Positions 13,841-64,000 of a stretch of 64,000 nucleotides of DNA are shown here, in pieces (positions within the stretch are counted from its first letter, which is position 1; the number at the start of each line of letters is the position of its first letter). Source of the stretch: Siderastrea siderea (lineage: Eukaryota; Cnidaria; Anthozoa; Scleractinia; Rhizangiidae). The notes under the pieces are model-generated. The model did no database searches and was not told where the DNA came from. It saw only the letters and a program-made list of their open reading frames with translations. The stretch covers positions 11,832,579 to 11,896,578 of the forward strand of contig OZ034971.1 of the NCBI GenBank assembly GCA_964030785.1, written 5' to 3'. A program made the position numbers and the translations under genes.

Positions 13841-15425
13841 CTACTCCCTCGGTACCAGGACCACTGGTATGTGAGCATGGTGAATGACGTAATCACTGAC
13901 ACTTCCTAATATGGTACGTCGAACAGTTCCCGCACCCCGGCTACCCATGACAATGAAAGTAGCTCCCTCCTGTTCGGCAACTTTACAGATCTCTTGTCCG
14001 GGGGGTCCGGCCTCCACGACAAACTTTGCATCTAGCTAGGAGTGGAAAATAGCATAGTGAATTGATGATAAGTTACTACTAAGGCTATAGGTACTTCAGA
14101 AACTCGTCAGGATACCTAAGGCTTTTTATGAGAAGGACTAAAATGGCTTTCCAATCCCTTTCCGCCATTTATCATTGTCCCGTTGCGTTGTCCTGCCTTA
14201 TTCCTCACTCGATCACGCTCTGCCATAGTGCGAAGTGTCCGAAAAAACATACCTTCAAGGCTTTACATTTCTTCTTATATTTCTTCTCCAGATCTTTAAT
14301 GATTTTATCATGTTTTTCAACTTCTCGTTTCCATTCCTCTGTGTCGGTCATGTCTGGAAGAAACAACACTTTCCCCGTTACACAGCAAAATATCCTCCAC
14401 TTCTCAACACTACAACATTTTAAGGTAAAACGTGTCATACTTACGAGGCATGGCGGGGGATTGTAGTTCGTGTGAATGTACAAGAACCAGTTGATCTCCT
14501 TCATGGTATACATGTTCCTTAAACCCTTTCGAGAAACATAGAATTTACGTTATTGGTCTTTACATTTCTCGTTGGACTTGAATTATTATTAAACGGGCTA
14601 AGTGGAAGGCAGACGTGACTGACTGACAGTACTGACTGGGTCTAATTGACTGACTGATTTACTAACTGCTTGAAAGACTTGACTGGCTGGCTGACTGACT
14701 GACTGATTGACTGACTGACTAAATGACTGGCTGAGTGACTGACTGACTGGCTGGCTGACTGACTGTCTGACTGGCTGACTGACTGACTCACTGATTGGCT
14801 GACTGATTGACTGAATGACTGGCTGACCATCTGACTAAATGACTGGCTGACTGACCGACTGGCTGACTGACTGGCTGATTGACTGACTGGCTGGCTGACT
14901 TACTGACTGATTGACTGACTGACTGACTGAGTGACTGGCTGGCTGACTGACTGGCTGACTGGTTGACTGATTGACTGACTGACTGACTAACTGGATAGCT
15001 GGCTGGCTGACTGACTGACTGACTGTCTGACTGGCTGAGTAATTGACTGACTGACTGACTGACTGACTGGCTGACTGACTGACTGACTGTCTGACTGGCT
15101 GAGTAATTGACTGACTGACTGACTGACTGACTGTCTGACTGACTGACTGGCTGGCTGGCTGACTGACTGACTGACTGATTGACTAACTAACTGGATAGCT
15201 GGCTGGCTGGCTGACTAACTGATTGACTGACTGGCTGAGTAATTGACTGACTGGCTGAGTGACTGGCTGACTGGCTGAGTGACTGACTGACTGACTGACT
15301 GACTGGCTTGCTGGCTGGCTGGCTGACTGACTGACTGTCTTGACCGTCTGACTGACTGAGTGTCTGACTGACTGACTGACTGACTGACTGACTGACTAAC
15401 TAGAGAGCTGCCTGGCTGACTGACT

Positions 15426-15457
<32 letters not shown>

Positions 15458-19960: not shown

Positions 19961-22163
19961 CAACCCAGGAGCTTCGCGCTATTGTGATGTATGAGGATGC
20001 AGAATAAATAAATAAAGAGTTAAACGAATAAATAAGGCATAAATGTCTGAACAAATAGATAAACAAATATGTAAATGATACCTAAATGAGTAAATCGTAA
20101 GTGAATGAATCAGTAGTACAGAATGGCACCTTTTAATATAAAAAAAAAAAACGTTTGCTTGTTTTATTTCATTTAATTAACCATTTACAATTCAGTAGTG
20201 CTAATAAAACAACTTAGAATACTTACAATTCTGTCTTCACTCTACATATCTCCAATTTGCCAAAACGCCAAGTAATTATTCCAAAGGGATATAAAATGCG
20301 GTAATAAACTCTGGAACTTTATTTGTTGGAAAAGATGTCTCGACAAGAAAGTTAATTGTTGCTTTTCCTTTTATATATTAGATTTTAAAAAAATCGCGGG
20401 TGTACATAGTGTACTCTGATCGGTTACGTCGTATTTTTTACAAACTACATACAATAATTTAAATCTGTAGTCCATGATTTCTCAAAGATCAACAATTTAC
20501 GATAACTAAATTAAGGCAACATTCTTTTGTTCTGTTTGCAAAGGCCATATTTGATTTGTTTTAACTTAGTAAATTTTATATTCTTTACAAACGTAACAAG
20601 TTGTGATTTTCTTAATCCGGTTGCTTCAAACATTTGATTATTTTAGATAAAATTCGAAAAAGTGTCCACTGTGGTAGTATTCTACAGTCAGCTGTACCTG
20701 TTAAGTCCGTGAATGAAATCCTAAAGTGCTATTGAGCAGTACTTCCCTGTGGAACCGTTCATTATGCTGTACAAAGTGCTTCTAACTTTTGAGTCTGTGG
20801 AAGAAATCCTTAAGTGTGACCATTCAAATGAAAGCTACTGAGCAGTACTTTCCTGTGGTGCTGTTTATTATGCTGTACAAGGTGGTTCTAACTTTTGAGT
20901 CCGTGGGTGAAATCCTAAAGTGTGACCATTCAAATGAAAGCTACTGAGCAGTACTTTCCTGTGGTGCTGTTTATTATGCTGTACAAGGTGGTTCTAACTT
21001 TTGATTCTGTGGATGAAATCCTAACGTGTGACCATTCAAATGAAAGCTACTGAGCAGTCCTTTCTTGTGGTGCTGTTTATTATGCTGTATAAAGTGATTC
21101 TAACTTTTGATTCTGTGGATGAAATCTTAAAGTGTGACCATTCAAAGGAAAGCTACTGAGCAGTACTTTCCTGTGGTGCTGTTTATTATGCTGTATAAAG
21201 TGATTCTAACTTTTGATTTTGTGGATGAAATCCTGAGAGTGAGCAAAACTTTTTTGCAGCCCGTTTTGACAAGGCTGTTCATTCTTTTGAGTCTTTAGAT
21301 AAATTCCTCATAGAGTGTGACCACCCAAATGAAAGCTATTGTGAAGTAACTAACTGTGGTGCCACTTGTTTTCACTTACTGCTGCTACATGAAATTTTGG
21401 TCTTCATTTTCACTATGGATTTTGAGCACTTCTGGTTTATGATACTAAATTTGCTGCTGCTGATGTTGTTACTGCCGTCAATGCAGTTCATCGTCGACGA
21501 CAGCGCACTGAAAACATCTGCTGTCTTGTAACGATCAACTTTATATTCTGTGTTCAAAAAATATCAAGTGAGGTTTTTCACGCGTATGGTTTGTAAAGCT
21601 GAGGCGAACACTTCACGTGAATAATTCTTTATCGCTGGCCAACAGCTAATCACTAACATTATTCAGCAAGTCTCCCAGGCAATTGGTTGCTTACATTCTG
21701 TGATCCTGTAAAAGAAGGAAAAAGTGTCGTTTACTAAAGCCCTCTTGCAGTTAGCAAATTTGCGGTTTTATAGGCGGATCCTTGTTTCTGTCGGCAGTCT
21801 TTGATCTAAGCATTATCGTAAAGTATCGAAAACTTTATAGTTAGCTTGGCAAATGAAAACACAAAAAATTGAAAGATACTGGCACAGTTAGTAAAACTAG
21901 CAAATATGAGAGGAGAATATTGAAAATTGAAGGAGATATTTGAAAAAGGACTGGCTGAGTGGCAAGAGTCGCCACTCAGTCATACAAACGTCTGTAAATG
22001 TTGTAAATTTTGAAAGCATCATTTGAAACCGGTTCCATCATTTTTCTTTCAAACTTCGCATGTTCACTAAATGTTATATGCTCTTTCTAGTTCTAATCTT
22101 CGTTTGTTTATCGGATGACTTTCAATTTTCAAGATGTAAACAGTGACATCAGCAAGGATCCCC
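19961..22163. other. Intergenic region downstream of STK11IP
   Basis: Contains AAAT-type simple sequence (20004-20110), the satellite at 20700-21330, and otherwise AT-rich DNA without a recognisable gene. A terminal STK11IP exon could be hidden here if the 22205 donor is used. Confidence 0.5.
20700..21330 (+). repeat. 106-bp satellite, forward-oriented array
   Basis: The word CATTCAAA starts at 20821, 20927, 21033 and 21139: an exact period of 106 bp over four units, with diverged units on each side. Because 106 is not a multiple of 3 the array cannot encode a continuous repeat protein. Confidence 0.9.
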
Positions 22164-23804
22164 CTAATATTGAGCCAACAAAAAAAGGACAATGATTTCA
22201 ACGTCATTTCTCCTTAGCCTCACCGTGATTGACGGATAAAGATTCTTCTGTAACTCTACACCAAACTGCTTCTCCCATGGCTCTTTAATAACTTTTACAA
22301 GGGAGGAGAGGGTGGGGACTGTCTCTGTCTTTAGTATCCATTGACTCTCGGCACATTCAGCTGGCGCATCCTGAAAACAGACCGAGAATGACGTCAGGGA
22401 TGAAATTCTCAAGAAATTCTCAAGACGACTTTCCTTAGATGATCGAAGCATATTTTAAAAAGCCAAAATGGAAAAGAAGCTTAAATGTAGCCAGTCTGAA
22501 GCGCGGAAACACGCAGCTGGTGCCAAGCGCGGGAAAAATGTAACGTCCGCCAGGCGCGGGGAAATATGGAACCTGTCCCAAGTAAGTGAAAAACATGCAA
22601 CCGGTGCCAAGCGCGGGAAAACATGCAACCGATGACAAGCACGGGAGGGAGGAAAAGAAAAAAGGCGTGATGAAACCGTTTGACAGTCAATCATAAAAAA
22701 CCCCTACAATATGTCCGACGAGCGGTGACGTCTCACCTCGTCTGTTATGCTGATACCCATAAAACACGGATCATCTTCGTAGAAGTCCTACAACAAAAAT
22801 AACATAATTCTAAGTTAACGCAGTAAAATGTTACGCAAACAAAGGGGATAAAAATTAGAGGAAATCTCTGTATACATACCAAGCTAGTGACGTCCGTGAT
22901 TTTGTGTTTTGCTAGGCACAGGAACGCAGGTCCCTTGGGAGCCAGGGGCATCGGTGTGTATCGAGGGACGGGCCACTGGGGATTCTGTTTGACCACGGCA
23001 ATGTGAGACCGCGATACAACCACACTGGCCGCTTCCAAACTCGAATCTGAAGAAAAACATGAAACATACGAAAAACATGGTTAAGTGTTTACAATGTCTG
23101 CAAATTCAGGGCTTGGAGCTTTTTTAAGAGCACGGGGCTTGAAAGCATGCTGCTCAGGCTTTACGCGGGACTCGTGGTCTCACCTCTCCGCTGACTATTA
23201 ACCAGGTAAGAACTTAGGTACGAACATACTAGTTTGTGCTCAAAACATTGTCTCGGTTCAGATGATCGCGTCATTAGGCAGTGATGTTAAACCGCCACTC
23301 TTGTCTACTACATCTTCTCACAAAAATCTGTGAGGTGCAAAGGACTCCACATCGCACTTTCAAAGGAACAGAGGCTGACCTTTCCATATTTCACGATTAG
23401 GGTGGGTGGGTGAACTAACTGTAAAATTGGTATTCACATCACGTGGGACGCAAATCCTGTTTGCTTCTCGCGTCAATGCGAATCACGACCAGTGTCAAAG
23501 TCAATAACAAAACTGAACTAAACCTTCATATTCATTCGCCTGACAATTTTTTCAAGTTTGTGTTTTGCTAATTGCTGTACACTACAACAATCCGTAACAG
23601 CCCGCAGTGTATAATGTTAAACCGCTGGCAAAATGATCAAAGGATGGGAAAAACGCCTTGGGATTTCAATATAAAACAGACTGGAGGTCACTTACGAGGT
23701 TTTGATGTATCTGTGCAGCGATGGACCATGATAAACAGGACGATACTAGTATCCATATCTGGTATGCTTTCCCCTGCAAAGGCTGCTTCTTTTGCCAAGT
23801 CGTT
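22164..23804 (-). CDS. STK11IP: STK11IP C-terminal conserved region and stop
   Basis: Exons 23804-23696, 23046-22880, 22787-22737 and 22370-22164, window residues 1160-1337. Contains SIVLFIMVHRCTDTSKP, HSSLEAASVVVSRSHIAVVK, FLCLAKHKITDVTSLDFYED and finally LSSLVKVIKEPWEKQFGVEL. Human counterparts are LVSLLLTPSTLFLL, LSSVLLYRSAPEDLRLLFYD and LTALLAWIREPWEELFSIGL, so this is the true C-terminus. Read straight on, the last exon ends at a stop at 22164-22166. A possible donor (ACG then GTGAGG, near 22205) could instead splice to a short terminal exon further left; I see no clear candidate. The human protein ends about 13 residues past the shared EPWE block, the present one about 37. Confidence 0.85.
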
Positions 23805-25017
23805 CTGTATTAAGGAAACAAAATAGCCGTTTGGACTTGTACTTGTAGAGTTAGAGAGTGGTTTCCAGTTGAAAGTCGTAAAACTGAAACGAAAGTTATC
23901 ATTTTGGCAAATCTCAACAGATGCAAACAACAAAGTGAACCAATGGCAGAACTCAAAGCCAGAAAGTGTAACAGGCAGCAATCGCAGGAAAACGGGTGCG
24001 AAAAAAATGGCGCAAATTAGTAAATTGGTGCGACGGGAGTTAACAAAATCGAACCAAACCTGAATTAGTTTTTACCATCAGTGTATTCAGGCTTGGCGAG
24101 ACACGATTGTTTTTATGTGAAATTTACTAACTTACTTTGCTTTGTTTACGTTATTAATTCCAGGGTCAACTATTGTTAAGGCAGACACGTGGAGCTGATC
24201 CACGCTACACTTCAGTCCTTTACATCATCCGTCGCTATGACGGAATTTCGAGTATTCCTATGCGCTTTTCAAGAGTGGAAATCAGTTGCTCCAATTCTCA
24301 TTAGAATCGACGACAACACAAACTTTAGTTTTCGTTAGACTGTCATCTTTTGCTTCCTATCACCTCTCGTGCGCTATCAACGAGTTCGAAATTTCGTCAG
24401 TTCTCGGCTGCTCTAGTTCTCGCTTGACACGGGATTAAGACGGACTCCTTGCTAACCCGGCACGCACGGAGTTGTTCTCTGCTGTTCTGTCTAAAACAGA
24501 AACCTCTCTAAGGTGGAAACGTGGAGTTAGCTCTCAGCATGTCCGTTTTCCGTTTCTGAGGTATATTTGTTGCACCGACCATGTAAGTTATCCATTTACC
24601 TCTGTGTTAAATCTGTAGTATTGGTCTCTGTCTTCAAACTGTTGTTCTTTAGACACGTTCTCCAGAGCTCCTGCATCCAATAGACGTTGTCCAATCTCTA
24701 CAGCCTACGAAAACATGAAACAAATCTATCAAAAATCGACAGATAGATCAATAAGCCAGCCAGCCAGTCACTTAGTCAAAACTTCAGTCAGTCAGTCAGT
24801 CAGTCAGTCAGTCAGTGAGTCCGAAACTCGGTTAGTCAGTCAGTCAGTTAGCCAGCTAGTCAGTCAGTCAGTCGGTCGGTCGGTCGGTCGGTCACTGGCG
24901 AGTCACTCCGTTGGTCAGTCGATCGGTCAGTCGATCGGTCCGTCGGTCAGTCAGTCAGTCAGTCAGTCAGTCAGTTGGTCAGTCAGTCCGTTGGTCAGTC
25001 CATTGGCCAGTCAATCA

Positions 25018-25048
<31 letters not shown>

Positions 25049-25701
25049 CGTAACTCGGTCCGTCAGTCAGTCAGTCAGTCGATAACTCGGTTAGTCAGTC
25101 AACAGTTGGCTGTCGGTCAGTCAGTCAGATCATCGGTCAGTTTGTCCACTACTGGTCACCAGTAAACAACAACAGAAAAGAAAGCGAACGAACGAATGAA
25201 CGATGACCAGTAATTGACAAAATCAAACTCTACCTCATCTCTATTTTCGACCTCTCCCACTTGAATCAGCCAATCAACAAACTCTCTGCCCACAAAGCAG
25301 CTTGAATAGCTTCTTAACAGACTCTGCAAACAGAAAAGAACAGCAGGAAATGAGAATGCTCACTTGGATCTAAACGAGCTCAGGGAGTTCCCGGTTTCTG
25401 AAATCTTTACCTCATTTAACAAGCAAACAAACTAGCACATGACTGGAAGAACAAACGAACGAACAAACAAACAAACAATCTTTAAACAAATAGTGACTCA
25501 AACAAACTTAAAAAACAATCTTTGAGTATGCTTAGTGTTGGTCATCACCAACCTTGCGGTCCTTAATTAGAGGAGGATCAGTGAAATTCATGACCTGCTG
25601 ATGGAGCCGCTCACCCTGAAAGAAAAAAATAAATGAACAAATCAATCAATCAATCGATCAATCAATCAATAAATAAATAAATCAAGCAAGCAGTCACTCA
25701 C

Positions 25702-25739
<38 letters not shown>

Positions 25740-25740
25740 C

Positions 25741-25773
<33 letters not shown>

Positions 25774-28700
25774 GCAAGCAAGCAAGCAAGCAAGCAATCA
25801 CTCAATCAAGCAATCAATCAATCGAACACTCAATCAAACAATCAATCAAACAATCACTCAATCAATCAATACTGAAATAAATAAACAAACAAACAAATAA
25901 ACATCAGTCAGGAAACCGGATACATCACAGTTAAGGGGACCAGCAAATGGATGATTTAGTGTTTTGAATAAACTGTAAATACGGAGGATCTCTCGCCTTA
26001 ATTTTGTTAAGGACGTAGAGAACTAATAGGGAGTTTAAGCAACCACGACGACAACGACAACGTGAAAAAACAATAGGCTTTAATGATCAAAACAATGGCT
26101 CTGCACGTGCGTTCTACATTTTAGTACGTTTCTTTGCCTTCCTCTGCAAAACAACAACGTGAAATGGCTAGTTTTAAGGTTTAGATAGAACGGGAACACA
26201 CGACGGTGAATTTTTATTTCTCTAAGGGCCTCTTCATATGAGCCCGGTTGACCGGGCTGGCCCGGTTTCCGAGATCTCGCCTCACTCCTATTTCCTTTGT
26301 AAAAATTGCGATGTGTTCATATGAGAAGGCGGGCCAGCCCGGTTACCGAGATCTCGGTTTCTACAACCGAGATCTCGGCAACCGGGATTAAAATTTTCCC
26401 ATATGAACACTCCAGCCCGGTTACCGGGATGAAAATGTTTTTGACAAATTAGCTTCGCTTTCGAAACTGGGCGGCCAAAATAGCATAATTTTGCCGTGTG
26501 TGCATTTCCACTTCAAAAGTATTCGAATTAGCTTTATTAGTAAAGTTACAAGAGTCGGCAAAGCTATGATAGTCGCGAACAATACTTGTTAATGTTGCGC
26601 CATTTTGGTTTTGTTTCTTGAATTTCATCCCGGTAACCGGGCTGAAATTTCCCATATGAACAGACGACAAAATTCATCCCGGTAACCGAGCCAGCCCGGT
26701 TACCGGGATCATATGAAGAGGCCCTAACTGAACTTGAGCGCCGTCCCTACGAAATCAGCTCCCAGATAGTTCGGCCACATTAGACAACTCACACGAGTTG
26801 GAATAATTGCGAAGTAGAATAAAAGAAGCGAAATAAACAAATTTAATGACGTTCTCCTTTGCGTTGCCGTCGTCGTTGCTTAAAGTCCCTAATCTTTATG
26901 CAGACACAGCCGCCCAAGGGTGAATATCAATAATTGATGCAAGAATAACTAAAACTGGCTTCTTACCATGCTACCTGGATCTTCCACTTGACTGCCTAAG
27001 ACCTGAGACCTGGGCAAAACACAAGCTTTTTGTTACTGCTTTGATCCACGGACTGACCTGCAGCCAGTATAAAGCGTGCGAAAACTCACGCCGAACACCG
27101 AAAAATTGAAGACGCACACCCTTGTGCTGACTTTTAAAACTAAACAACAACACTCACGAGCGTGGAACAAACAAACAAAAAACACTGAGCTACTAACACT
27201 CCCGCTCAGCTACAGTGACAAATGGTGCTAAGCGCGAGAGAACTTTAAATCAATGTGACTCACATACGATTACAGGGATTTTCGAAACCTCTGTCTTAGG
27301 TGGAGATTTTTGAAAACAGTGATTTATTGTTTGTTTGTGGAGGGCAAAAGTGGAGATAATGTGATACAGTTTGACCCACCGTCCACACGCAAACGATCGA
27401 AAACCACGAAAGCGATTATGTCACAACATTGGACAAATCACTACAAAGTAGCCTTTTTTATCGCTTTAGTGGTTTGCGTGTGAACGGTAAAAACGGATGA
27501 AAACGTCTACGTAAGATGGAAAACGAAAAAACTGGAAAAGCTGGAAAACGTTTCAAAACTAAAAAAGACAGGCAAGTCCCCCCCCTCCCCCCCCCAAAAA
27601 AAATGACGCGCTCTGCAAATATAACTCGCCTGATGTGCTCCAACGTTTGAGGATGAGGAGGACAGATGACAGCAGGTTTGCTGCCGGCCTTAAGTTTTGC
27701 TTGTTGCACAGCATCTGCAGAGCAAAAACATGTACGGAGAGTGAGAAAGCCATAACTGGAGGTGCTTCAATAAATTTATGATTGACCTAATTACAAAACC
27801 TTACTATCGAAATTTACAGCTGTACTGCCCAATCATAAAAACACAAATAACGCAGAGCATAACTAAGTGACTGGTGCCAAGGGCGGGAAAACATAAAACT
27901 GGTGCCAAGCGCGGCAAAACTTAAAACCGGTGCCAAGCGCGGGAAATCATGCACTCGGTACCAGGGCGGGAAAAGGTTGGGCGATGAAACGAGCAGTCCG
28001 CTCTTCAAGCGATGTGTGATGCGGAGAAAGACTGGCACGAGCGCTCTTTCCGCGCTTCCGGTGCGTTTGGTAGCCGGCAAAATTTACCTTTCAACAAACC
28101 GGAAATCTCATTTTCTTTCTTTATTTTTCAGCCAGCCGTGCACTATGATGAAAACGTTTTTTCACAGTCCTGGCTCACAGCTAAAAATGTTTATGTCTGC
28201 GTGCATATTAGTCATTATTTTTTTCTCAGCGCGTGAGCGGGCAAGATGAACCAAATCCTGCAATCTGATTGGTTCCGGGAGCGGGCGGAATTTTCCGATC
28301 TTGACCGCGGTCAACGGAACGTCAATAACAAAATATTTGTAATGGGTTTTTAAAACCTTTAAAATCTTTAAAACGTTCTCCGAAACTTAGAATTCTGAAA
28401 TTTTTTGTACATTGTCGTTAAAAACTTTCTTTCCAAAATTTCTTGTTAAAATACCGAAGGTTGTACAATGTAAATCGCCTCTTCCCTTTCGACAAACATT
28501 TGAGTAAATCGAGCAGGAGTTAGCTACATGTATCGAAATTTGGGAAAATAAAGGGGTTTCTTTTAGTTATATTGCTTCCTGTGATTTCTGAGTTTTAACA
28601 GCGTAAAAAAGCGTATTTTGCTGCTCTGGTGTCACAAACGGCTTCGTTTCATGGTTCATTTTACGCGCGCTTGCAAAACGTTGCTTTCCGAAAACAACAA

Positions 28701-31700
28701 GACACGTTTAACTTTTGAAAAACAACAAGAAAAAAATAAAAATATTATTTGCCGGCCTTGGTCGGTCCGTATTGAGAAAAACTGTGCCCTCGGTCTTGAG
28801 CACGGCCCTCGGCCTGCGGCCTCGGGCCGTACTCAAGACCTCTGGCACAGTTTTTCTCAATACGGACCTCCCGGCCGGCAAATAATATATATATCTTCTT
28901 CACAGTAAGTTGGCGAAAAATGAGTTCAATTTGAGGGTGCCGAATGCTTGCTCTTGCTGCAAAACATGACATGGTTGTCTTTTATCGTCTCTTTTACAAA
29001 AGCTCCAAATTACTCCACCCTAAATCTTGCATATTTTAAAGGTCGACAAATTTTACATAACATAATAAAAAATTAGCTGGAGATATTTGGAGATAGTGGC
29101 GTTTTGCAACTTTAAACTTTGCCTCCTTGCAACGCGCCATGGCGATGATTCGTCGCAACGTCGTCAACTGTATGTAAACAAATTAAAAGTGAAATTAAGT
29201 TTAAAGATTTCTCCTCCCTTTATCTCACAGAAACATAGCAAAGAAACCGTTTAAATTGAGGAGCAATTCTATTTGTAGTTCCTAAAGAAACAGACAAGCA
29301 TAGGAGAGGTTTAGGGGAAAAAGAAGAAAAAGCGCGGTGTTGATGTTGATGTTGATTTAATTAATTAACCAGGGTGTCCTGATTAACCTTGCACGAGCTG
29401 CACGCATTATAAATACGCGTCATGCCACGCGTCATCCAAACGCCATTTTCCATCTTTTTACTTTACTCTGCTTGTTTTGAGACAGTCTTTCGGCAGTTTT
29501 TTAGCATCGATCAAGGCGGATAAGACAAAGAAAAGATAAATCAAAGTCGGCGTTTTTCGGGAACTTCATAGATTACCAAGATTATGGAGGAAACCCAAGG
29601 AAGCAACCTAGATCTAGCACCGAATTTGATCCCAGTCCACTGCATCACACCTTTTTGCTCGGACCCGCTCGTTTCATCGCCCAACATTTTCCCGCCCTGC
29701 TCGGTACCAAGCGCGGAAAAACATGCAACCGGTGCCAAGTGCGGGAAACTATGTAACCGGTGCCAAGCGCGCGAAACTATGAAACCGGTGCCAAGCGCGG
29801 GAAACATGTATTGTACCTCACACCGAGCACGGGAAATGCGCGTACAAGTCAAAGCCAAGTTTGGTGTGCTCTTGAATCCCGATTGGCTGAAAAATTCAAA
29901 AGGAAAAGAAGGAAGAATACTTACCTATAAATAAGTTGAGGAATTTTTCACAACGGTCTCTGTCGCGAACAAGAAACTCATAACATCCTCCGGGACTTGA
30001 GAATTCAAGACGAAAACTCTACCAAAAAGAATGAATAACCATAAACAAGACAACGTTCAAACGCCTAGCAGAGGAAGACACTAAAATCATCTGCACATAC
30101 CAGCAAACCTGCAATTTGATTGTATGTCAAATTTTACCGAAAAAACGAACAATAAAACCACCTTATAGCTAATTTAACTTTTAGGACCTCCACAGACTAG
30201 ACATTAGGTTGTCGACAACTATTTGTTATCGACAACTAATTCTGTCCGGTGCAAGCATTCCACACATCAGAGTGTTAGTTGTCGATAACTAAGTCAGGCC
30301 AGCGAGAGCTTGGGATCCAACGTTCACTACACACGCTCATAACGCAGTACGTTTCCAAAATGGCGTGCGCAGTTACGATAGTTGTCGACTACTAAACCAA
30401 TCATTCCCACACACGGGAAAAACGATCAAAAACGTAGTTGTCGACAGATAAGCAGTTTCTCTTTTCGAAAAGGGAAACTGTCTAGTTGTCGACAACAAAA
30501 AATGTAGCGTTTAGTTGTCGACAACTCATCTCATGCACAACGTTTTTTAGTTGTCTATAACATTTACTTGTCCATAACAAATAGTTCTCAACAACTAGAT
30601 GTCTAGTCTGTGGAAGCCCTTAGTTAAATTGAGCGCATGTTTGCACCAAAGCATTAACACGGAATCCATTAGGAAATTGAGTAATTTAAATTTTCAGTGG
30701 ACAAAAACCTTGTACCAGAATAATTTAAAGCATATCGCACTCTTTTTTACATTTTTTGAGAGCTATGGATGTCATTTGTTATCTGTAATAACCCCAAAGA
30801 CAATTTCTTATGGGAGCCTGAGAAAATAAATTTCAAATTTCACAAAATGAAATCTTACGCATAAAAATTTACCTATTTTACCCGTGTTTACAGAATTCCT
30901 GTGAAATTTGAATTTGAATTTCGCGGGCTCCCATAAGAAATTGTCTTTGGTGTTATTACAGATAACTAATTACGTCTATAGCTCTTAAAAAGTGTAAAAA
31001 AGAACGCGATAAACTTTAAATTAAAATTCTGGTACAAGGTTTTTGTCCACTGATTACTCAATTTCCTAATGGATTCCGTCTTAATTTATAAACAGGCACA
31101 GGTTACCCACACAACCGGTGCTTGGGTTTATCACCACTTACCCCTGGACGGGAAGCTTGTCTATCACAAGGTTATCCCCCCACCCTCCCCCCCCAGTAGT
31201 TTTTAGGTTTTCCTAACAGTTCACTGGCATTTACATATATGGGTGGAGAGAGACAATGTGGAGTGAAGTTTCTTGTCTAAAGAAACAACACAACTTCATG
31301 CAGAGACCACCCACGAAACAATGACCCTCCACTCTTCCGATTTCCAAAGTCCAACGAGCCTACCGCCAGCGTATCGCTCATCCACAATCCTAAAATTCTG
31401 GCAAAAGTTTAATACAGAAAATTTCCAGAAAATGACTTCCTCTATTACGGAAACCAACCAGTGATCCCAAAGGCGTATGCTATAAAAGGGAATGGCCGTA
31501 GTTATGACAACACATACACAAAATGGTCTAAATAAAAAAAAGGAAGTGAAATCCTCACCTGTCCACCAAGACCAGAGTCAATAAACTGTAAATCATCCAA
31601 AGCATGAGACACAAGCGGGGTCAGACACTCATCTGGGGTACCACTGCAAACACAAACACAGACATATTTGAGCTCCAGCGCGTTATTTTCTTGGCCTAAC

Positions 31701-34700
31701 ATCGATTAAGTTAGAATTCTGAAACTAAAGACCCAATTTTTGGGAAAGGCCATTTCCGAATTTCCTTTAGCCTTTTTTTCAAAGCGAGGCTGGGTGCTCA
31801 TCCTTTCATATAAACATTTATTTTCATTTGCATGTAAATGAAAAGTCATTTTCATATGAAAGGATGAGCACCAGGCCTCGGTTTGAAAACGAGGGCAAAG
31901 TGGCCCATTGACATAGTCTACGAGCTGAGCTCCCCAAACACATTTCCACGCGGCAAGGGCTACCATCGCGCACATTCGCAAATACCTCTCGCTTGACTAT
32001 CACTGAGTAGAAGGAAGGACTACAAGTACTCTAGAATTAACAGGCCCAAGAGGCTGCAACTTTCAGATGGCAACTAAAAGGTGAGATTATCTAAAGACAA
32101 GAAACATCAAACAAGGTAAAAACGACCGCGAAATCCTTAAACGTCGATTTAATCCTCTAAAGGTTACCTTGCCGATTATCATCGGTATGCAGAAAGGAAT
32201 TTAAGTCAAATACTTAACAAGAAAGTTTCGTACTACCGTGGTCAAAACTAAAACCACGTATGGATAAGAAAACACATTGTTTTTGTTGGTTCGGAGTTTT
32301 TGTTACTGTATTTTCGTTTGGACCATTGCTTTCGGTGGGAACGTTAATTTCGGGGTGGGGGGGAGGGGGGAGGATGTTATAGTTGGAAGTTGGTCACTTT
32401 CAGTAATTATTACCGTCGTTTACATCTAAATCCGCGGCTGAACGTTCCAACATCGTTCTACGTTCTTGGATGAACGTTGGTGTGATGATAAGTGACGTTT
32501 AGTCGCGCGTACAAGATTGTTGTACAACAAATGCTGTACGACATTGTTGGAACGTTTAGCCGCGGTTCAATTGTGGCCCCGCCACGAAATTACATGACCT
32601 AATTTGGTATCAAACATGGTATGCTTTATCACCAAACACTTCAAATGGCGAACTTTCGAACCCGCATCTATCGACCAAAAACGAGCCTCTTTTGAGGAAG
32701 GGAAAAGAATTAAATTAACAGTTTACCTCAAACGTTGTATCAAACAACCAACATCGTGTAACAGCCCACCAATCTGGCGTTTGCTACCCAATTAGATCAT
32801 GTGTTTTTCGTCACGTGGTCACTATTAGTGGGAAACGACAGTAGAAACGTCCTTTAAGTTACTTTTTACGCTATTATGTGACTGTACCTTCCTTTGAGAG
32901 AAAATCTGCAGAGATAGAACATGACATTGGAGATAATCATGAGAGACGGAGTTTCCTCTGTGCTGCCATAAACAACGACTGGAGCCTATAAAAAAATAAT
33001 AAATAAATAAAAAGCAACAACAATTTAGGGAGAAATTGGGTGAGTAATTTTAATTTACAAGCATGAATACTGAATTGTACAACATGAAGTTCAGTTACCA
33101 ATAAGCCACAACGAAATGAACATAAAGTTTATGTGAACAGTTTTTGGACTCAAAATGTGAGCGATATTTTCAATCAGTTCCAAAATAGTGGAAAGGCCAG
33201 AGCTTGAAATAATTTCCCGGCTGGCGCCGGTCAAGTTGTCCGGTCAAACTTATTTTTGCTCGGACACAACCCATTTTTGGCCGGACAAATATCCATTACG
33301 TCATATCTCTATAAAATCCCCCCTCCCCCCGCATAATGTTTACATATCAAGCAAGTACATTTTCTACGCCTTTATTGTACATGCAGCCTCGAACTCAATG
33401 CTGGAACGCACGGTACAGCCGCAAAGTTCGGCAGAATCAATATTACATTTGTGCATACAACTATCGCTTCAGTTCTTTGTCTTCTATACGGTTAAATTTT
33501 AATACCTACTTAAGTCGTGAAGTTGATGGAATATGTGAACTTTCTGTTTAAATGGTTTGTTTCCCTTGAAAATCACCTCTCAGGGATGTTTCGTCAATCT
33601 CGGAATTTAGACCTAGAGTGATTCACACAAAATGTCGACAAGTCGACAAATAAATGTAAACTTGCTTTCTTTTTATTGGACCGGACCTTTGTACCGACAC
33701 TGAGAGGCACTGTTAATTCACACCGCTACACACGCTTTCTCCGGAACACCCGCTAATTTGCGGTGACAGCTTGATGAATGACAAAGCGAAAATTTGCAAC
33801 CACCGGAAATTTTACAACCACTATTATGAATCATTTGTTAAAAGTTTTTGGTCTGGTAGTATCTCGTTCTGTCTTTCTCCTTTTCATTCACGAACGCCAA
33901 TAATGTTGAAGCTTTAAAAATTTAAAATTTTCTTTACAAGGGTAAACGACCGGACAAATTGTCCGGCCATCCAAGGATTTGACCGGACAAAACCTATTTT
34001 TGACCGGACATTGTCCGTTGACCGGCCGTTATTTCAAGCCCTGAAAGGCAGCAAAAAGAACACATAAATTAAAAAGTACTTATGAGTAATTGACGGAAGA
34101 GCAAAGTTGGTGACTAAATACAGACAAGTGGCTGTATTGTCAGGCTATGCATTCTGCCTAAAAACATTTAAGTTTTGACATGTTGTCCATTTCCCAAGTA
34201 GAGGACCATTGGGTAAGAAAATGTCATCAACGACAATTTGTCGAGGGGACCCGAAAAGGGCCGAATTCAATCGCTAAACGCCAATAAGAAAATTCCAAGA
34301 AGACACCAAACAAAAGTGGCATTGCGTTTAAAAATTCAAAACACAACAATAGCCAAAGTTGATATGAAGCAATACTAGTGATTACTCCAAAAGATTGTCC
34401 TGTCCTAATTTAGAAAAAACAGTCCCTCACCTTCAGCAAACAGCGGAACTCCTCATGGTTGCCCCACCGAAACAGCGACACCTCAAAATACAGCTTGAGC
34501 TTGTGATCACAACTTGAAAATTCATCCGCTGACAAGCGAAAGCTCAAAGCTACATTTTGTTGCATCAAAGTTGGAGTTGATGCCCGTGAACTTGAGCTGG
34601 AGGAGCTTCGTGAGTCCACGGAGCTTGTGCTCGGGCTGTTTCCGGAAAGCCGACCACTCAACCTGTTCATCAGGTTGCTGAAAAACATCTTTGGAGTTGG

Positions 34701-37700
34701 AGATCTGGACAAACCAGTCGTCACCACTGGTTGTTGTGAAGCATTCTCAGAGGATTTGGGCGTGTCAGTATTTGCATTGTGAGATATTTTCCTTTGTGTT
34801 GAAGAATAGCTCTGGTCAGAACGTTTTACTGCCGAGCCCACTTGTGGAGAGTCTTTTGATGCATTACTTCCGGAAACAGGAAGTGATTGACTCAAAAGCT
34901 CAGATGCCTTGTTATGATCATGCAACTTCCGGTCGGTATCACGCAACTTTCGCCCAGCGTCACGCAACTTTGGATCAGTATGACGCAACTCCCGAACAGT
35001 GTCACGCAGTTTTAGGTCAGGCGGAGTTGATGCAAAGCCATTAAAAACATCTTCCGCCGATTTTCTTCTGTTTGGAGACAAACCTGTTGAATTATTCACC
35101 TGTTTATCTGATTGTGCTTCTGGTGATTTGCCAAGTGTCGACTCTTTTAGCGAATTGCTAAGTGCACTTGTTCTTACTTGAGTTGCCTGAATGGTCCTTT
35201 TTGTTAACGTATACTTTTCATTTTTGCTGGCTACTTTATAGTTTCCAGAATTCTTGATCATGAATTTCTTCTGGTTGTTTTCAGTCTGAGAGACTGTTTT
35301 CTGGTCATTTTCTCTAGAAACATTGTCTGATGCATTTGAACACAAGTCCGGAACATTAGAAGGCTGATCCAGGGCTTCTTTTGTTTTAGGAATCACATCT
35401 GGACTCTCCTCTGTTCCAGGTACATTTCTCGCTTGCCTACACAATGTAAATTATTTGAACGTCAATAACACAAATCTTTTGTACTTTGATGAAGTGTTAA
35501 AAACTAGGAAACATTTTGTGCAACTCTTCTGTCTAGTGTAACACGACATACACATAGCCAACAAAAGAAAACCCTTGTCTATTTTCTGTTGTCGGAATTG
35601 TCAGGCCCGGCCAGGGGTTTTGGGTATTCGGGCATCCGGAGTCCTTTTTACTCAGGTATACGGTATTTTGTTGTCACAATACGGGTATAAATTAGTTCGT
35701 TTTTCCTGAATTTTAGGTATTTGGTATATAGACATGAATTTGTATAATTATATATATGTATGTTTTCAGTTTCTACTGCTAGTTCTCATGAGTTCCGAAA
35801 CAAAACAGTCAGGAATAGTTTTCATAGCTGTTTGATCACTTCACCAGCCCTCACCAGAGGTCAATGAGAGGTCAAGGGGCTCTATATCTCCCCCAGGGCT
35901 CTTGCGCGCCCATTTCGCATCATGTGACGAGCGAATCACACGAATAATCATGAACATGGCTGCCGGCGGTCACGCTGGTGAGCGCCTTGTCCCAGTTTCA
36001 TGTTTTATTTATCATTGCCAACAGGCGAAACCATGCGAGAAGTGGTCGACGTACATCAAAATCGAGTTACAAAATAGATGACATGACAATCAAATGGTTG
36101 TTCAGAACACCCAGCCAAGACACAACAGATTTCATTAACTTAATACACAATGTTTTCCTTGTCTCAATGGACGTCACATGTCTTTACACCAATATTCCAC
36201 AAGAAAAAAAAAACTGAAAACACTGCAACCTCGTTCCCAGGGTTTCTCTTCTTCACGTCCCCTGGAGCTTCAGGGGACGGGAACAAGAGAGACCCTGGGA
36301 ACGAGGTTGAAAACACTGCCTGTCACAAAATGGTTTCTACAGCAACATCAAATTTTATGAACAATGAGAAAACAAATTGTAACCACAAAATTTTTCGGAA
36401 CAGTCACAAAGTTTGGTGGCTTTTGTTTGTATATGGCAAGCGTTCAAAGTCAGCGCCCCACAGCCCCATATAGGGATAACAAATGTTTCTGAAATTTAAT
36501 TTGCCAGGTGCTTGGCTTCAAGATATCCAGTTTGTTTGTGAAACCCTGGTGATCCACAGAAGTTCTTCTTCAGGCTTAAGCTTTTCTAGCGATCTTATAA
36601 TCCACATTCAATAAGGAAATAGGAAATGAAATGAATATTTTCCAAGTAAATAATTTGGGGTTTTTACTATTTTCTCATAACCGAAGTGGTGGATCTTAAA
36701 AACTTTTTTCATCATCTTAAAACAACTTTTTTCAGCATTTTTAATAAGGAGCTTTAAATTCAAAAATGGCTGTGGTCTTAAATTAGCCTAATCATTTGAT
36801 GACAACCAAGTGTCGGCAGTGTCGGAAACGAGACAAAGTTCCAACCAAATCAACTTTTAATTCTCCACAAATCTTCGCTTCACATGTGAGCTAACCGGAC
36901 CCAGCCCAAACACTGAAAAAAACCCTTTTAGAAGAAAACTCATATTGACATGAAATGATTGACCTTAGGTAATTGCTCCGACAGAAAACCAATCAAACTC
37001 TGATCACTGATCACTTTGAATTCATGACTGTCCTTATCTTAGAGCAACACGCGCTAATATACTTGTCCTTTACATTATTATTAACTTGAACCTAATACAA
37101 ACCGCTGAAAATATACCTTGAATAATAAACGAGTAAATGTAAACAAACAATTCCAACTAAGTCCGGGGCTTCTCCCCCCCCCCCCCCCCCCCGCGCGCCG
37201 CTTAGAAAGAAGGAGCCAAATCATTTGCATGCATCTGTTGCTCTTCAACGCAAGTTTATACGAGCAAACTGCAGAATAATAGTTTTCGCCTGGTCTCGTG
37301 AAATCGAGGCATTTACTGTAAACCTTCAGGGTATTTCTTTTCCTTTCATTTGTCCTTTGAAACAAACTGTTATTACTAGAACACGATTTACACTTCATTC
37401 AAAGATCAAAAGTCAGTATTTCCTAATTAAAGTTACTGTTTCGCTACTGTGCAGTTGTCAAATTTTATCAGTAACAATTTTATTACCTTGATCCGCAACT
37501 GACGCAAATGATGTTCGAACACATGCCTTTAAACTTTGGAAAGTGTACAAAATTTCTCACAAGCCTGTTTTAGGAGATACCTACAAGACATTATTTTATT
37601 CAAACATATCTTCCAATACCCTTTTACCTGTTTTGAAACAAACTTGGCACTTAACAGACCTGAATTAAAAAGAGAATTGCAAAGTTCGTAGGCGGTTAAG

Positions 37701-46700: not shown

Positions 46701-49700
46701 GCACCAACGTTTATTGTAAATGGGACCAGTGCATTTCCCACAAAGAATTTGCAAAGAAAATCTCCCAGCGTTTTGTCAAGACGCATTTTGTTCAGGGAGA
46801 AGTCATACATTCCCGGGCAAAGCAACAGAGTCGTTAGATCTGCAACAGCCAAATTCATCAAGAGATAGTTGGTCGTCGTGTGCCTGGAAGATGTTTTTCG
46901 TACAATGGTGATTATCATGCAGTTGGCTGGAACACCGATGATGACGATAAATGAATACATTACGGCGAATGCTATATCTTGACCAGAAAGATGACTATTG
47001 TTGTAAACTGACGAATTGTTTGATGCCATGGTAAAACATATTAAACTGCGGAACTGAGAATCACAACTATTTATGTTTTTTACTTCGGGTGGAGTTGACG
47101 TGTGTGGGTTTGCTTAGCATTATTGTGACAACGTCGAGCTAAATAATTCATGCTTTTAGTTGCAAACAGTTAGTATTAAAACGTTCAGAATGATGGAAAG
47201 TTGATCTTCGGTGGCAGTTAGTCCACTAAGTTTTCACCTGTTCAGTATCTTGCTTTCCTTCAATATCAACTCTGTACTTATTTATCCCACCTTTTCGTTC
47301 ATTTTGTGTATTGTCATGCAAGTTTTACAGAAGTTCTCTCAAAGATTTTTTCTGCTTTGGATAAAATTAAAAGGTTGGTTTTAAACTTTTTAAAGTCATT
47401 GGAAAGTTGCAGCTTGCACAATTAACTGACAGTTTTAATGGCTCGAAACGTCTTCCTGTTTAACTTAATACGCTGTTCCGAGGTAATCACTTTACATCGG
47501 CCATACTAGCCATATATAATATGAGATTCTTCCAAAAGAAAAAACATCTTTTCTTAACGCTTTATGGCATGTTGTTGTTTATCGATTAACAATGTTGTTC
47601 TGATATTATTTCAGTGATACTGAAGTTCAAAGATATGAACGTAACATTTTCACAGTATTATTTGGTCCTACACTTTTCCATGGTTCTCGTTATGTAACAG
47701 AAATTTCTGTTATGTGGGTGGGTACTAACTGCTTTACTACATGAAAACTGTACGTGAAAAAGGCAAAAACTACAGTAGAATATATCTGTCGCTTAGTGAG
47801 AAGACTGTTTCATACTGTCTAATTATGTTTCTTCGTCTCTGTAGACAGATGGTTCAATTTATTCCAAATGGCAACTGTTCATCACGCATTTCTTAAGTCA
47901 TTCGCATTAGTATCTAAGTAGCTTTAAAAGAAAATAAAAATAACAATGGTCATTTACGTTCATGAAGAGTGGAAACGAGTTCTACTTTTTGTATCCTTTC
48001 AACTTCCAGTGAAGTCTATTTCTATTTCTTCACTGTTATACAGTGGGCGTCAGGAGTCATGGTGGGCGTTTTGCAACGATTGACAATCGCAAAAACTAGG
48101 AAAACAGCGAGTGTCATTTCTACAATCATTACTGATGAAATTTGTAACCTCCCTAACACCGTTCGGTCAAAAACGACACAAATATATCTTAATCTACTAA
48201 CGTGATATTTAGGCTTCGTGAGATTTTGAAGCACATTTAGTAAACAGGACGCTTTAGTCATCAATGCGACATGTCTGATTTTAAAATTTGCACGAAAACC
48301 CGGAACTTCTTAATAATACTTCTTATCATACCTGGTGAGAACACTTCTCTTCACTACTTACCGATAAGACAAGCAATGGTACAACTAAAAGCAGAGTAAA
48401 AATCAAAACAAAACAAAAAAACAAAAACAAAACAAAAACATACCCTTTGTCGTCTGTGAGCAAAACATTGCTTTGAGAATAATCCGTATTGCCTGTCTGC
48501 ACTGGTTCTTGTGTTGCAAGGTCATCAGCCGCTTCAAAATATGACGACGAAGAGGAAGATGATGACATTTTAACAAGAGCTGTGACAGACATATCACCAT
48601 TTAGTGTCTTGATAGAGCTTGAATTCAGCTTAGCGGCCCCCACATGCTCCCTCATGTAGTCTTCTATGCTGCGAAGAGGTAGAACTGGTTTTTCCTGTCC
48701 TGGTGACGACACTAGCACTGTCATGGAGCTGCCACAGTCGGGACAGAGAAGATCATCTGAGTTTGCCGGCCTTGTAAACTCAGCGGAGCACTTCAAGCAC
48801 TGAAGTAATGCAAACAAAGCAAAGAGAGTTATCATCTGGTTGACTGCCTTCAGTCAGAAAATGTTGTTCTAACTTTTGAATCTGTGGATGAAATCCGAAA
48901 GTGTGACCATTCAAATGAAAGCTACTGCGCAGTACTTTCCTGTGGTGCTGTTGATTGTGCTGAACAAGAAGGTTCCAACTTTTGAGTCCATAAAAAATTC
49001 TTACGTTTAATCAAATAAATGAAAGCTACTGGTGCAATAATTTCTCTCACGCTGTTCGTTTTTCGATTTTTCAATTTGAATTTCATTCCTGAAAATTGTC
49101 ATGATTCCATTTTGCAACCTCTCATTTTATTGTACAAGGTGGTTGTAAGTTTTGAGTATGTGGATAAAATCCTAAAGAGTGACCACTTAAAGGAACTATG
49201 TCACGGTATTTTCATTCACTTTTCTCATCTGACAAAACTATTTTCTCATTTAAGGAAACCTCACAATAATAGTTTCCTTAGGTAGAGAATGGATTACGAA
49301 TGACAAACTTGAAAAAACTTGCCCATGTTTTCAAGATGTGTTATCCGTGACGTAGCTCCTTTAAAGGAAACGTATTGAGTAGTTATGTACTGTCCTGATG
49401 AATTGTTACAGTGTACATTGTATGCTGTACAAGGTAGTTTTCACTTGAATCTGTGGTTGATTTACAAAACTGTGACCATTTATAAATAAAACCTGTTTAG
49501 CAGTGCTTTCCTTTGGTACTGTTACATTACATTACATTGAATGCTTCTGAGGGGTACTTTATTGCAGCTCTCTTTATCACGCTGTGCTTTCGTAGTGCTT
49601 TCGTAGTGCTTTCGAAGTGCAAAAATAAAGTTACCAAAAATACTCACAGCATGGTAACCCTTTGAATACAGTTCAGAAGAAGTTATCAATACTTAAGCTC

Positions 49701-52700
49701 CCAAGGTGACCCCGCGAGAGAAAATTGACTTTGAAGTTATCCATATTTTATTTAAAATAGACGCTTCATGTCAGTTCAAAACAACATGGCACCCGTTTTT
49801 AGCATATTTTTACGAGGTTTGACATACTTGAATACTTGAGAATTTTACCGCCCGGTTACTTGAAGAAGTGAATCAAAGTGAGATTTTTCAAATAGTATTC
49901 AAAATGTTACCGTGCTATGAGCAGTATTTTATTAATTAATTTTTGCAGTTATTGCTCGAACGTTGAGCGGAATCCGCCTTGCAGTACTCTCCCGTGATGA
50001 TGTCTGTTTTTTCCCATTTTATTTCTACCAAGACGAAAAGTGGAAATACGATAAAAAAATTTGTACACACGATTTTGTATCTTGACCTCAGATAAACACT
50101 AATCCCCACCTGGAGACGATCCGCAGCAGGTTGTTTGATTTGTTTATTTTCAGTTACATATGGCTTCAGAGTCTCTGCAAATTGCTGCAGTAATAAAAAC
50201 AAAATCAGCCAATACTGTGCTTTTCTGGTTGACCCTTTAAGCCCTCACAGTGACGGTAATGAAATTTCTCTTTACATCATTACTACTTGTTTAAACATTC
50301 AAGTAATGAGAATAAAGAAGTTGATCACCAAGGGTAAGACGTCTTGATATCTAGACAAATTCTCCTCGATAGTTCCATAAGAAATGTACGGAGAACAGTA
50401 AGGAGAATATGCAATTTCATATCAGGGCTTAAAGGGTCATTGATATAGACAGCAATACAAACACATGCATGTGTTTACTTTGGTCAGTAATAATTCATCA
50501 CCATCTGTACTTATATGCGCTAAGAGACCTCCAGTAAGGGTTCACAATTAATCAAATACAGGTGAATTTTAAAAGAAAGGAAGACAAACCTTGGCTTTTG
50601 GATTCCAGATCGAACTGGCATTTAGAAACATCAAGGCTCTTGTGGAGCGAGGAAAAACAGAACATGCAGACACTAATGATGCATCAATAAGCGCTAACCC
50701 GATGGCGCCTCAGGTTTATATCTTGAACCCGTGCCGCAGTAGACTGCGAGTAGTCTCTAATTTTGGCGATAGCGATCGTGGGGTGGGCGAAATACGCACA
50801 CGCGCACGCGAAATTTCGAGGGCGACGCGGAGCTCCCCTCATTTTTGGCGCCCCACTCGCGTCGCGTCTCCTCGAATTTCGCGCGCGCCCCACGATCGCT
50901 ATCGCCACAATTAGAGACTACTCGCAGTCTAGAGCGGCAAAAGTGCGAAGCAAGCACTGTTACTGCGGTGTCAATCCTGCCTCCGTAAAGGCCATTAAAA
51001 TCCTGTCAAACAAACTCTCACCATAGCATCCTCGTGGCTTTCCATGACATAATCGCGGCTTTGTCGCTCTGGATTGTAGTAATCAAACTTGAGATGAATG
51101 ACTGTATGATCATCTCCAGTCTTGTCCACAAACACTTCCTGTAAACAGCTTGTTTCCAACTGGGAAATCACCTGAAAACAGCAACACAAAATAACCAGAA
51201 ATAAATTTGCTACGCCCGCAGCTAGTAAAGAATTCTTTGAAAGACTTAAAAAGACTAAGAAATCCTAAACTTTAAGCCCAGGTCAAACGAAAACGACATT
51301 TGCCGATTGTTGACCAGAAGTTCAAACTGTTGTCCTCTTTTTATCTCAGAATTCAAAGCACTCTGGGCGATTCTGGCACGCTTTCCACTAAGAGTTTGAA
51401 ACTGCTCAAGATATCTAAAGGTATGTACGTATAAACTCCGGCTCTCATTTGACCTCGAAAACACATGCACTCTTACACATTCTCAAAGAAACTGAACTCT
51501 TGTCGGGTCTGTCTATTTCATGAGTTCGAGTTCGAGTTTCGAGTCCGAGTTTCGAGTTAAAATATCGAGTTACTACACTTGGTCAGCGATGATGCAACAT
51601 AACAACACGTGCTTTGGTCTCCAATCTAAAATGGCGGAAAGCCGCGGAAAAAATTATCTTCACTTGGATGGTCTTGCTTCTAACAAGGCCAATATTTGTG
51701 AGCGGTCCTTTTATTTAGGTCAGCGAGATCGGCGAAAAAGAACATGGAAATCTTCCATTTGTTCCTCGGTGAGTTGTTCCTGAATAATAAACAAATTTCC
51801 TTTAATGCTTTCAGCGGCTACTGCGCAGGGTTTCACTGCTTTATTTCTGTCTTTTGTTACCAAGGACTTACGCGGATGTAGTGAAAGTCAAGCCGCAGAT
51901 AGTGGTTTTAAGCGATTCAGATGAAGACAATCATGAAGGCGGTGATGCGCCATGTCGCCCAGTACAGCACGACATGTTCAGAGTACACAGTACAGCAAAT
52001 GATGCCACAGTTGGGAGCGTGAAGCAACTAAGTATTGCCCCCCCCCCCCCCCCCTCCCGGTCTCGAAGGCCCCGAAAGCTTTCGGCCTTGAAAAGCCATT
52101 CATAAAAATATGAACCACTCATTGTAAAAACTGTTATTCCAGCTTGTATTTAAGATAAGGAATACTTAACTTATGACAAAGTTTCATGCTTAGAAACTTC
52201 TTTGTTTACACAGATACAGTGTGAATTATCGTGCTCGAAATCGACCTGAAAAGTTTCGGAACTTTTGAGAAACACATGCCTGGTCGGAGAGAGACAATGT
52301 AGAGTAAAGTTTCTTATCTCCAGAAACAGCACAATGACAGGGACCAGGTTTCGAACCACCAACCTTCAGATCTGAATTCCAACGTGCTAACTACTACCAC
52401 TACACCACTAGCCCCTCCCCCCCCCCCCCCAACACTTGAACAAGTACTTAGGGCAAACGGTCAGGGAAACCTTATAGAAGGTTGGGGGTAACCCTGTGAT
52501 CAACTAGCGTTCCATCCACGGGAGAGTAGCCACTTCATACTGTGCTATCAAAGATGAGTGAAACCTTGACAAGTACGTTTACTCACCTTTCCAGTGAAGT
52601 TCTTCTCCACAACAAAGTCATCCTTGACTGTCACAAACAACGGCACTGCTGTTCCGTCATCATCCTCGGGTGTGGCCAACAGAGTTACCAGAAAATGCTG

Positions 52701-63678: not shown

Positions 63679-64000
63679 CCAGCATTTACACTGTAACCAA
63701 GTGACTGACAATTGAAGGGCCCGGTGGAAAAAGGGCGTAAGTAATGATTTGAGGTTGAAATCGAAATTGCTCCTATTTAGCTGAACATTGGCACACAGGC
63801 TGGTTTTCCTGTAAGGAACATTGTTGTGCAGTTATTTCTTGACCTGAGAGCTTCAATTTGAAGAATTAGCGTATTACTTTTGCTTAAAACTGACACAAAG
63901 AAAACAACAGGACTGCAGATTCTAGGTTGAATTCCTTTGTTTTACTTCAGGCAGAGAACAAAAGAAATCTTTCACGCATCACTTGAGCGAGTTCAGTTCA

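Follow-up and report, generated by a model that had tools for sequence, protein, structure and literature searches.

The window analysed here, a stretch of 64,000 nucleotides from the coral Siderastrea siderea (GenBank assembly GCA_964030785.1, contig OZ034971.1, positions 11,832,579 to 11,896,578 of the forward strand), carries on its minus strand most of the coral STK11IP gene, which is encoded there in 29 exons from 63347 to 21691 and spans more than 41 kb. Within this gene, three exons encode a complete DEP domain, located in the linker between the second PH-like domain and the C-terminal PH domain of STK11IP. Together they form a symmetric cassette of 258 bases (phase 0 on both sides):

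25553..25615, minus strand: DEP exon 1, 63 bases, phase 0-0, GERLHQQVMNFTDPPLIKDRK (AG/GT borders, frame, first part of the PF00610 match)
25234..25323, minus strand: DEP exon 2, 90 bases, phase 0-0, SLLRSYSSCFVGREFVDWLIQVGEVENRDE (PF00610, borders; aligned in eight of eight relatives)
24600..24704, minus strand: DEP exon 3, 105 bases, phase 0-0, AVEIGQRLLDAGALENVSKEQQFEDRDQYYRFNTE (PF00610, borders)

In translation, these exons run from GERL to KDRK (25615-25553), from SLLRSYSSCFVGREFVDWL to DE (25323-25234) and from AVEIGQRLLDAG to YYRFNTE (24704-24600). An initial annotation, made from the DNA sequence alone, had placed all three with exactly these coordinates and in frame; they lie on the minus strand and each has AG/GT borders. 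The Pfam family PF00610 matches the DEP stretch with 76.1-79.3 bits (cut-off 32.7; E 2e-21 to 2e-22). As this score is far above the cut-off and the match covers positions 4-72 of the 72 profile positions, the domain is complete and far above chance, which agrees with the earlier claim of a complete DEP domain inside STK11IP. Foldseek likewise returned matches to DEP structures. As all three exons are of phase 0-0, insertion, removal or skipping of the cassette leaves the reading frame intact. Long arrays of tetranucleotides, (TCAG)n and (AATC)n, lie in introns beside the DEP exons, at 24784-25141 (between exons 2 and 3) and at 25640-25870 (before exon 1), and the length of these repeats might affect the splicing of the frame-neutral DEP exons.

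The gene model was built from open segments with AG and GT borders on the minus strand from 64000 to 17000. It reads in frame for 1,322 residues before the stop, with AG acceptors throughout and GT at 27 of the 28 donors, the remaining one (after 27630) being GC. On the spliced protein, Pfam reports LRR_8, LRR_4, PH_S11IP, PH_PLEKHM2, DEP and PH_S11IP_C in this order and all above cut-off, so that the DEP domain indeed lies where it had been placed before, after the second PH-like domain and ahead of the conserved C-terminus. LRR_8 reached 42.6 bits (cut-off 27), PF25357 (STK11IP PH) 53.6 bits (cut-off 27) and PF25624 (STK11IP C-terminal PH) 45.5-48.7 bits (cut-off 22). The matches to leucine-rich repeats (LRRs), PH_S11IP, PH_PLEKHM2 and PH_S11IP_C on the same spliced protein identify STK11IP as the host gene of the DEP exons. 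The scan was made with a first model that was 14 residues short before the DEP domain; the DEP domain at residues 1078-1144 of that model occupies residues 1092-1158 of the final one. The N-terminus lies outside the window: the relatives described below have some 135 to 155 further N-terminal residues, and the part corresponding to the LIP1 N-terminal domain PF15904, which is present in all eight of them, lies beyond base 64000. The remaining exons, all on the minus strand, are:

53531..63347, minus strand: eleven exons with leucine-rich repeats and a charged linker; the gene runs past the window at its 5′ end (Pfam, model)
50110..52714, minus strand: three exons of the first PH domain (PF25357), 52714-52587, 51171-51022 and 50184-50110 (Pfam, model)
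48444..48799, minus strand: exon with a zinc-ribbon-like CLKC...CPDC segment (sequence; Pfam zinc-ribbon matches below cut-off)
34431..35436, minus strand: large exon with the low-conservation region, then the start of the second PH-like domain (model, identity comparison)
32888..32985, minus strand: exon of the second PH-like domain (Pfam, model)
31559..31643, minus strand: exon of the second PH-like domain (Pfam, model)
29925..30018, minus strand: exon of the second PH-like domain (PF23142) (Pfam, model)
27630..27714, minus strand: exon with the end of the second PH-like domain and the linker start; GC donor (gcgagt) (model)
26967..27009, minus strand: 43-base exon SQVLGSQVEDPGSM, upstream neighbour of the DEP cassette; entry phase 2, exit phase 0 (HIRSQVFG..VEDP..MGERL of the relatives)
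23696..23804, minus strand: exon directly after the DEP cassette, with linker and the first part of the C-terminal PH domain (model, alignment)
22880..23046, minus strand: exon of the C-terminal PH domain (PF25624) (Pfam, model)
22737..22787, minus strand: exon of the C-terminal PH domain (Pfam, model)
22224..22370, minus strand: exon of the C-terminal PH domain (Pfam, model)
21691..21705, minus strand: final coding exon, DHRM and stop (DHKM/EHKM ends of coral relatives)

The GC-AG intron that begins at 27629-27630 (donor gcgagt) and the subsequent micro-exon 27009-26967 were found with the help of the relatives' sequence, and a micro-exon following a GC donor is easily missed by automatic annotation. 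A direct join of 27714-27626 to 25615 was rejected, as its donor is poor and the relatives have 14 extra residues at this place; these are supplied by the GC-donor exon and the micro-exon.

Four very similar intronless rhodopsin-type receptor genes lie in tandem and on the same strand within the 13 kb intron 35437-48443 (minus-strand frames 45986-47113, 43776-44798, 41462-42484 and 37975-39102; PF00001 in both that were tested). Two of the copies, 41462-42484 and 43776-44798, have an early stop after ...AFQSSNY, and an apparent stray 3′ fragment of another copy was seen by eye near 40480-40420. Frames with Ser-Val-Gln repeats at 14788-15958 (minus) and 24619-25053 (plus) look like read-outs of tetranucleotide arrays and are unlikely to be genes. 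Downstream of STK11IP, a short open segment at 17680-17600 (minus), MSAGPSQRIVAIAVDSSDHSEKAFD, looks like the opening exon of a gene for a universal stress protein; no Pfam match was obtained for it with a query that contained six added letters.

In the protein, the DEP domain is flanked by ...PHPQTLEHIRSQVLGSQVEDPGSM upstream and NDLAKEAAFAGESIPDMDTSIVLFIM downstream. The PF25624 match of the frog orthologue begins at profile position 2, in the segment that aligns with the coral residues preceding the DEP domain, so that the coral DEP domain separates the leader of the C-terminal PH domain from its strands. When the C-terminal 309 residues were used as query, eight proteins were returned among 1,873 candidates. 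They comprise two corals (Oculina, Stylophora), two anemones (Actinia, Nematostella) and four others which are, over their length, 64-73% identical or better among themselves or with the corals just named. In all eight of these coral- or anemone-type relatives, retrieved with their C-terminus, PF00610 occurs together with PF25624 and PF25357. In the protein collection searched, coral and anemone STK11IP proteins thus already have PF00610 as a computed annotation; the architecture was not described in any paper found by our literature searches.

For five of the eight relatives (P0001, P0003, P0006 and two anemones) the identity to Siderastrea was compared domain by domain. It amounts to 87, 86 and 78% for the DEP domain of P0001, P0003 and P0006, and to 60 and 62% for the two anemones. 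In the same order of relatives, the values are 91, 80, 74, 53 and 51% for the second PH-like domain and 85, 84, 76, 50 and 50% for the C-terminal PH domain, while the low-conservation region is only 17-18% identical to that of the anemones. Across the five relatives compared, the DEP domain thus shows roughly the same degree of conservation as the PH domains beside it. The source records of P0001, P0002, P0004 and P0005 comprise 4,479-4,947 bases, which is near the size of coding sequence plus untranslated regions. As the gene spans more than 41 kb in Siderastrea, these records are probably transcripts, and the DEP exons would be present in the mature messages of at least those relatives. That the exons are part of a different gene, or are left out of the mature message, might be considered in view of the long repeats in two of the adjoining introns and of the fact that skipping of any one exon preserves the frame. 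However, eight of eight relatives have the same DEP domain at the same place of the same protein, some of them on transcript-sized records, and conservation carries across the junctions on both sides of the domain, so that this explanation is extremely improbable. An artefact of the gene model was rejected on the grounds of this common placement.

Orthologues from bilaterians were obtained by an alignment search and by a rearranged-alignment search without LRR and DEP, and comprise seven proteins from Mactra, Branchiostoma (three, one labelled floridae and two lanceolatum), Acanthaster, Strongylocentrotus and Mantella. The Pfam comparison across orthologues which the initial annotation had proposed separates the two groups: eight of eight coral- or anemone-type proteins have the DEP domain, and the precomputed Pfam lists contain PF00610 for none of the seven from mollusc, amphioxus, echinoderms and frog. 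An hmmscan with a limit of E 10, in which filters drop most matches above about 0.1, reported no DEP domain in the six bilaterian proteins scanned; for the seventh, P0047, the precomputed list is without DEP. A degenerate DEP domain in bilaterians was rejected, as neither the scans nor the precomputed lists include one. In amphioxus and Mactra, the flanks are joined straight across the DEP site (amphioxus joint ...DTHNNIRSQVLKAGEENSPEVDTDITMYLL), and the other bilaterian orthologues have a DEP-less linker there. The linker of the frog is longer, and aligners place part of it on the DEP columns; this overlap, in which 8 of 86 residues are identical, is taken as noise.

Judged from these sequences, the absence of the DEP domain extends beyond vertebrates among the bilaterians sampled. 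The expectation that the human protein has only a short linker there was examined in one vertebrate orthologue, that of the frog Mantella, which has a linker and no DEP match. Yet the idea of a loss in vertebrates was framed too narrowly, as all seven bilaterian proteins are without it. It is well possible, if somewhat short of an even chance, that STK11IP of the animal ancestor already had the DEP domain and that bilaterians lost it, as opposed to a gain in cnidarians or anthozoans. The domain occurs in both stony corals and sea anemones, a single clean loss would cover the seven bilaterians, and symmetric phase-0 exons can be lost without a frameshift. This symmetry, however, also fits a gain by exon shuffling, and a single-sequence match to P-REX1 starts at cassette residue 1, although not with the profile. 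Moreover, three sequence searches returned no orthologue from sponge, placozoan, ctenophore or medusozoan by which the state at the root could be judged. Being word-based, the search has low sensitivity (P-REX proteins match the DEP domain well, yet are absent from the eight hits of the C-terminal search), and the absent medusozoan, sponge and placozoan sequences therefore carry no meaning.

When a nine-sequence profile of the DEP domain was compared to known DEP domains, the best matches were DEPTOR DEP1 (73.3 bits), EPAC2 (71-72 bits) and P-REX1 DEP1 (70-77 bits), followed by weaker matches to IML1 (45 bits), GPR155 (42-43 bits), DEPDC5 (35 bits), DVL2 (28 bits) and RGS7 (22 bits). By these scores the STK11IP DEP domain is nearest to those of DEPTOR, P-REX1 and EPAC, ahead of IML1 and GPR155. 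The parallel to DEPDC5 and GPR155/LYCHOS drawn in the initial annotation is valid insofar as these are DEP-bearing proteins of the lysosomal mTORC1 pathway, but as closest relatives both were rejected on the profile scores; Foldseek nonetheless ranks LYCHOS fifth by fold. The fold matches also include 8wma (Fzd4/DEP complex) and 7ewr (GPR158 with RGS7-Gbeta5). They would agree with a DEP domain whose docking partner is a membrane receptor or a G-protein partner, as is the case for Dishevelled (Frizzled) and RGS7 (GPR158 complexes). Considering the large profile distance to DVL2 and RGS7, such a role seems quite unlikely, and the G-protein-coupled receptor genes inside the STK11IP intron speak of position only and provide no evidence of an interaction.

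Mammalian STK11IP is described, in excerpts of PMC8976005, as a lysosomal substrate of mTORC1 (at S404) which binds Raptor via a TOS motif and the V-ATPase through residues 360-770. It restrains the V-ATPase, controls lysosome acidity and ties mTORC1 to V-ATPase activity and autophagy (PMC8976005). The DEP pair of DEPTOR binds phosphatidic acid and, with the PDZ anchor, the FAT domain of mTOR (PMC8439649), and for P-REX, membrane-binding loops in DEP1 of P-REX1 and binding of the DEP domains to mTOR are reported (PMC11668296). In the STK11IP DEP domain, the basic hairpin KDRK...[RK]E is conserved, with K18, R20, K21 and [RK]34 kept in nine of nine sequences and R25 in eight of nine, and its net charge is +2 to +4 over a stretch of 20 residues. 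As the nearest DEP classes bind membranes or mTOR and as this hairpin is conserved, it is favoured here, with chances that we consider about even, that in the coral and anemone form of STK11IP the DEP domain docks the C-terminal PH-DEP-PH module at the lysosome membrane or at a membrane-bound partner. The hairpin would contact an acidic phospholipid or a membrane-bound lysosomal partner, and this contact would act as a second attachment, setting the place or the time at which the scaffold stays close to mTORC1 and the V-ATPase. Less securely, the DEP block may have entered the gene as a symmetric set of exons akin to DEP domains of the P-REX/DEPTOR/EPAC class.

Several points weigh against such docking and its proposed origin. 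The rest of the domain has a net acidic charge, and many DEP domains have a small basic patch irrespective of their ligand. Mammalian STK11IP, which is not known to have a DEP domain, is lysosomal nonetheless, so docking is possible without it. While the single-sequence match to P-REX1 (chain 379-461) aligns cassette residue 1, the G of GERL, with GEKL, the match with the nine-sequence profile starts at position 12 and does not reproduce this start at the cassette edge. Lastly, the non-bilaterian side is represented only by corals and anemones.

A direct contact of the DEP domain with mTOR at the FAT/kinase region, as made by the first DEP domain of DEPTOR, would equip the scaffold itself to bind mTOR, in animals which are said to be without DEPTOR. 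DEPTOR DEP1 and P-REX1 DEP1 are among the best profile matches, and P-REX DEP domains bind mTOR (PMC11668296). DEPTOR is called vertebrate-specific, its N-terminal DEP domain forms the larger share of the DEP-tandem interface, and the hairpin of this domain inserts between the FAT and kinase domains of mTOR (excerpts of PMC8439649). In the human protein a TOS motif serves to bind Raptor (PMC8976005), and the strict TOS pattern F[DE][IVLM][DE][ILVMF], which fits the human FEVEL (PMC8976005), was found in none of 16 sequences (Siderastrea, the eight relatives and the seven bilaterians); FVVEK is present at residue 401 in Siderastrea. However, the frog and the other DEP-less bilaterians are also without a strict TOS motif. 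As it is missing in DEP-bearing and DEP-less proteins alike, there is no clean swap of TOS for DEP. In addition, the DEPTOR DEP pair alone gave no inhibition and one cryo-EM study saw only the linker and PDZ (excerpts of PMC8439657). The anchor of DEPTOR is its PDZ domain, for which STK11IP has no match, and the best fold match inside DEPTOR is the second DEP domain (chain range 127-222) rather than the first. EPAC2, which is not known as an mTOR binder, scores level with DEPTOR. Contact at the FAT/kinase region is hence unlikely, and it is distinctly unlikely that the DEPTOR/P-REX-class DEP domain of coral and anemone STK11IP itself contacts mTOR or its lipid signal phosphatidic acid. If it did, substrate scaffold and mTOR regulator would be one lysosomal polypeptide, a layout which bilaterians lost or never had and which vertebrates would approximate with a separate DEPTOR.

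Where exons 57031-56926 and 55281-55207 meet, eight of nine coral and anemone sequences and all three of amphioxus have a Ser/Thr-Pro at a distance of 27-28 residues ahead of a conserved WL; it was not found at that distance in Nematostella, frog, sea star and Mactra. It could be a counterpart of the mammalian mTORC1 site.

The additional conserved domain in coral and anemone STK11IP shows that the construction of this lysosomal control point differs among animal lineages. The frame-neutral cassette of three exons offers a ready-made deletion test in Nematostella, a tractable animal. The organelle that houses the algal symbionts of corals is related to the late endosome or lysosome, and, speculatively, a changed regulator of lysosomal pH could bear on this symbiosis.

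Among known systems, bilaterian STK11IP (LIP1; LKB1-interacting protein 1) resembles the coral protein in having LRRs, PH_S11IP, CxxC pairs, a PLEKHM2-like PH domain and a C-terminal PH domain in the same order, the sea urchin protein being without a PF25624 match and apparently shortened at its end, but differs in the lack of DEP. DEPTOR shares a basic KDR hairpin, and its first DEP domain is among the highest single-domain scores. Unlike STK11IP, with one DEP domain, no PDZ match and LRR/PH modules, it combines tandem DEP domains, a long linker and a PDZ domain. P-REX1 and P-REX2 are Rac exchangers which have a DH domain and, towards the C-terminus, several other domains. No DH domain was found in the window part of STK11IP or in the Pfam lists of the eight full-length relatives. 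EPAC2 (RAPGEF4), alike in its DEP domain, has cAMP-binding and Rap GEF domains, both absent from the Pfam scan of STK11IP. GPR155/LYCHOS and DEPDC5/IML1 share the pathway, but are integral-membrane or GATOR1 proteins of other architecture, whereas the Pfam scan of STK11IP revealed no integral-membrane family and only LRR, PH, zinc-ribbon-like and DEP families. SKIP/PLEKHM2 and nischarin share a C-terminal region with STK11IP, in which SKIP has an embedded PH domain (excerpts of PMC3240744). SKIP differs from coral STK11IP by this inserted PH domain in place of DEP and by a RUN domain, which Pfam reports neither for the STK11IP protein of the window nor for the eight relatives. Judging from the wording of PMC3240744, the PH domain of SKIP and the coral DEP domain may be insertions at one hinge of a shared module, and the linker between the two C-terminal PH-like domains may thus be a site of repeated domain insertion.
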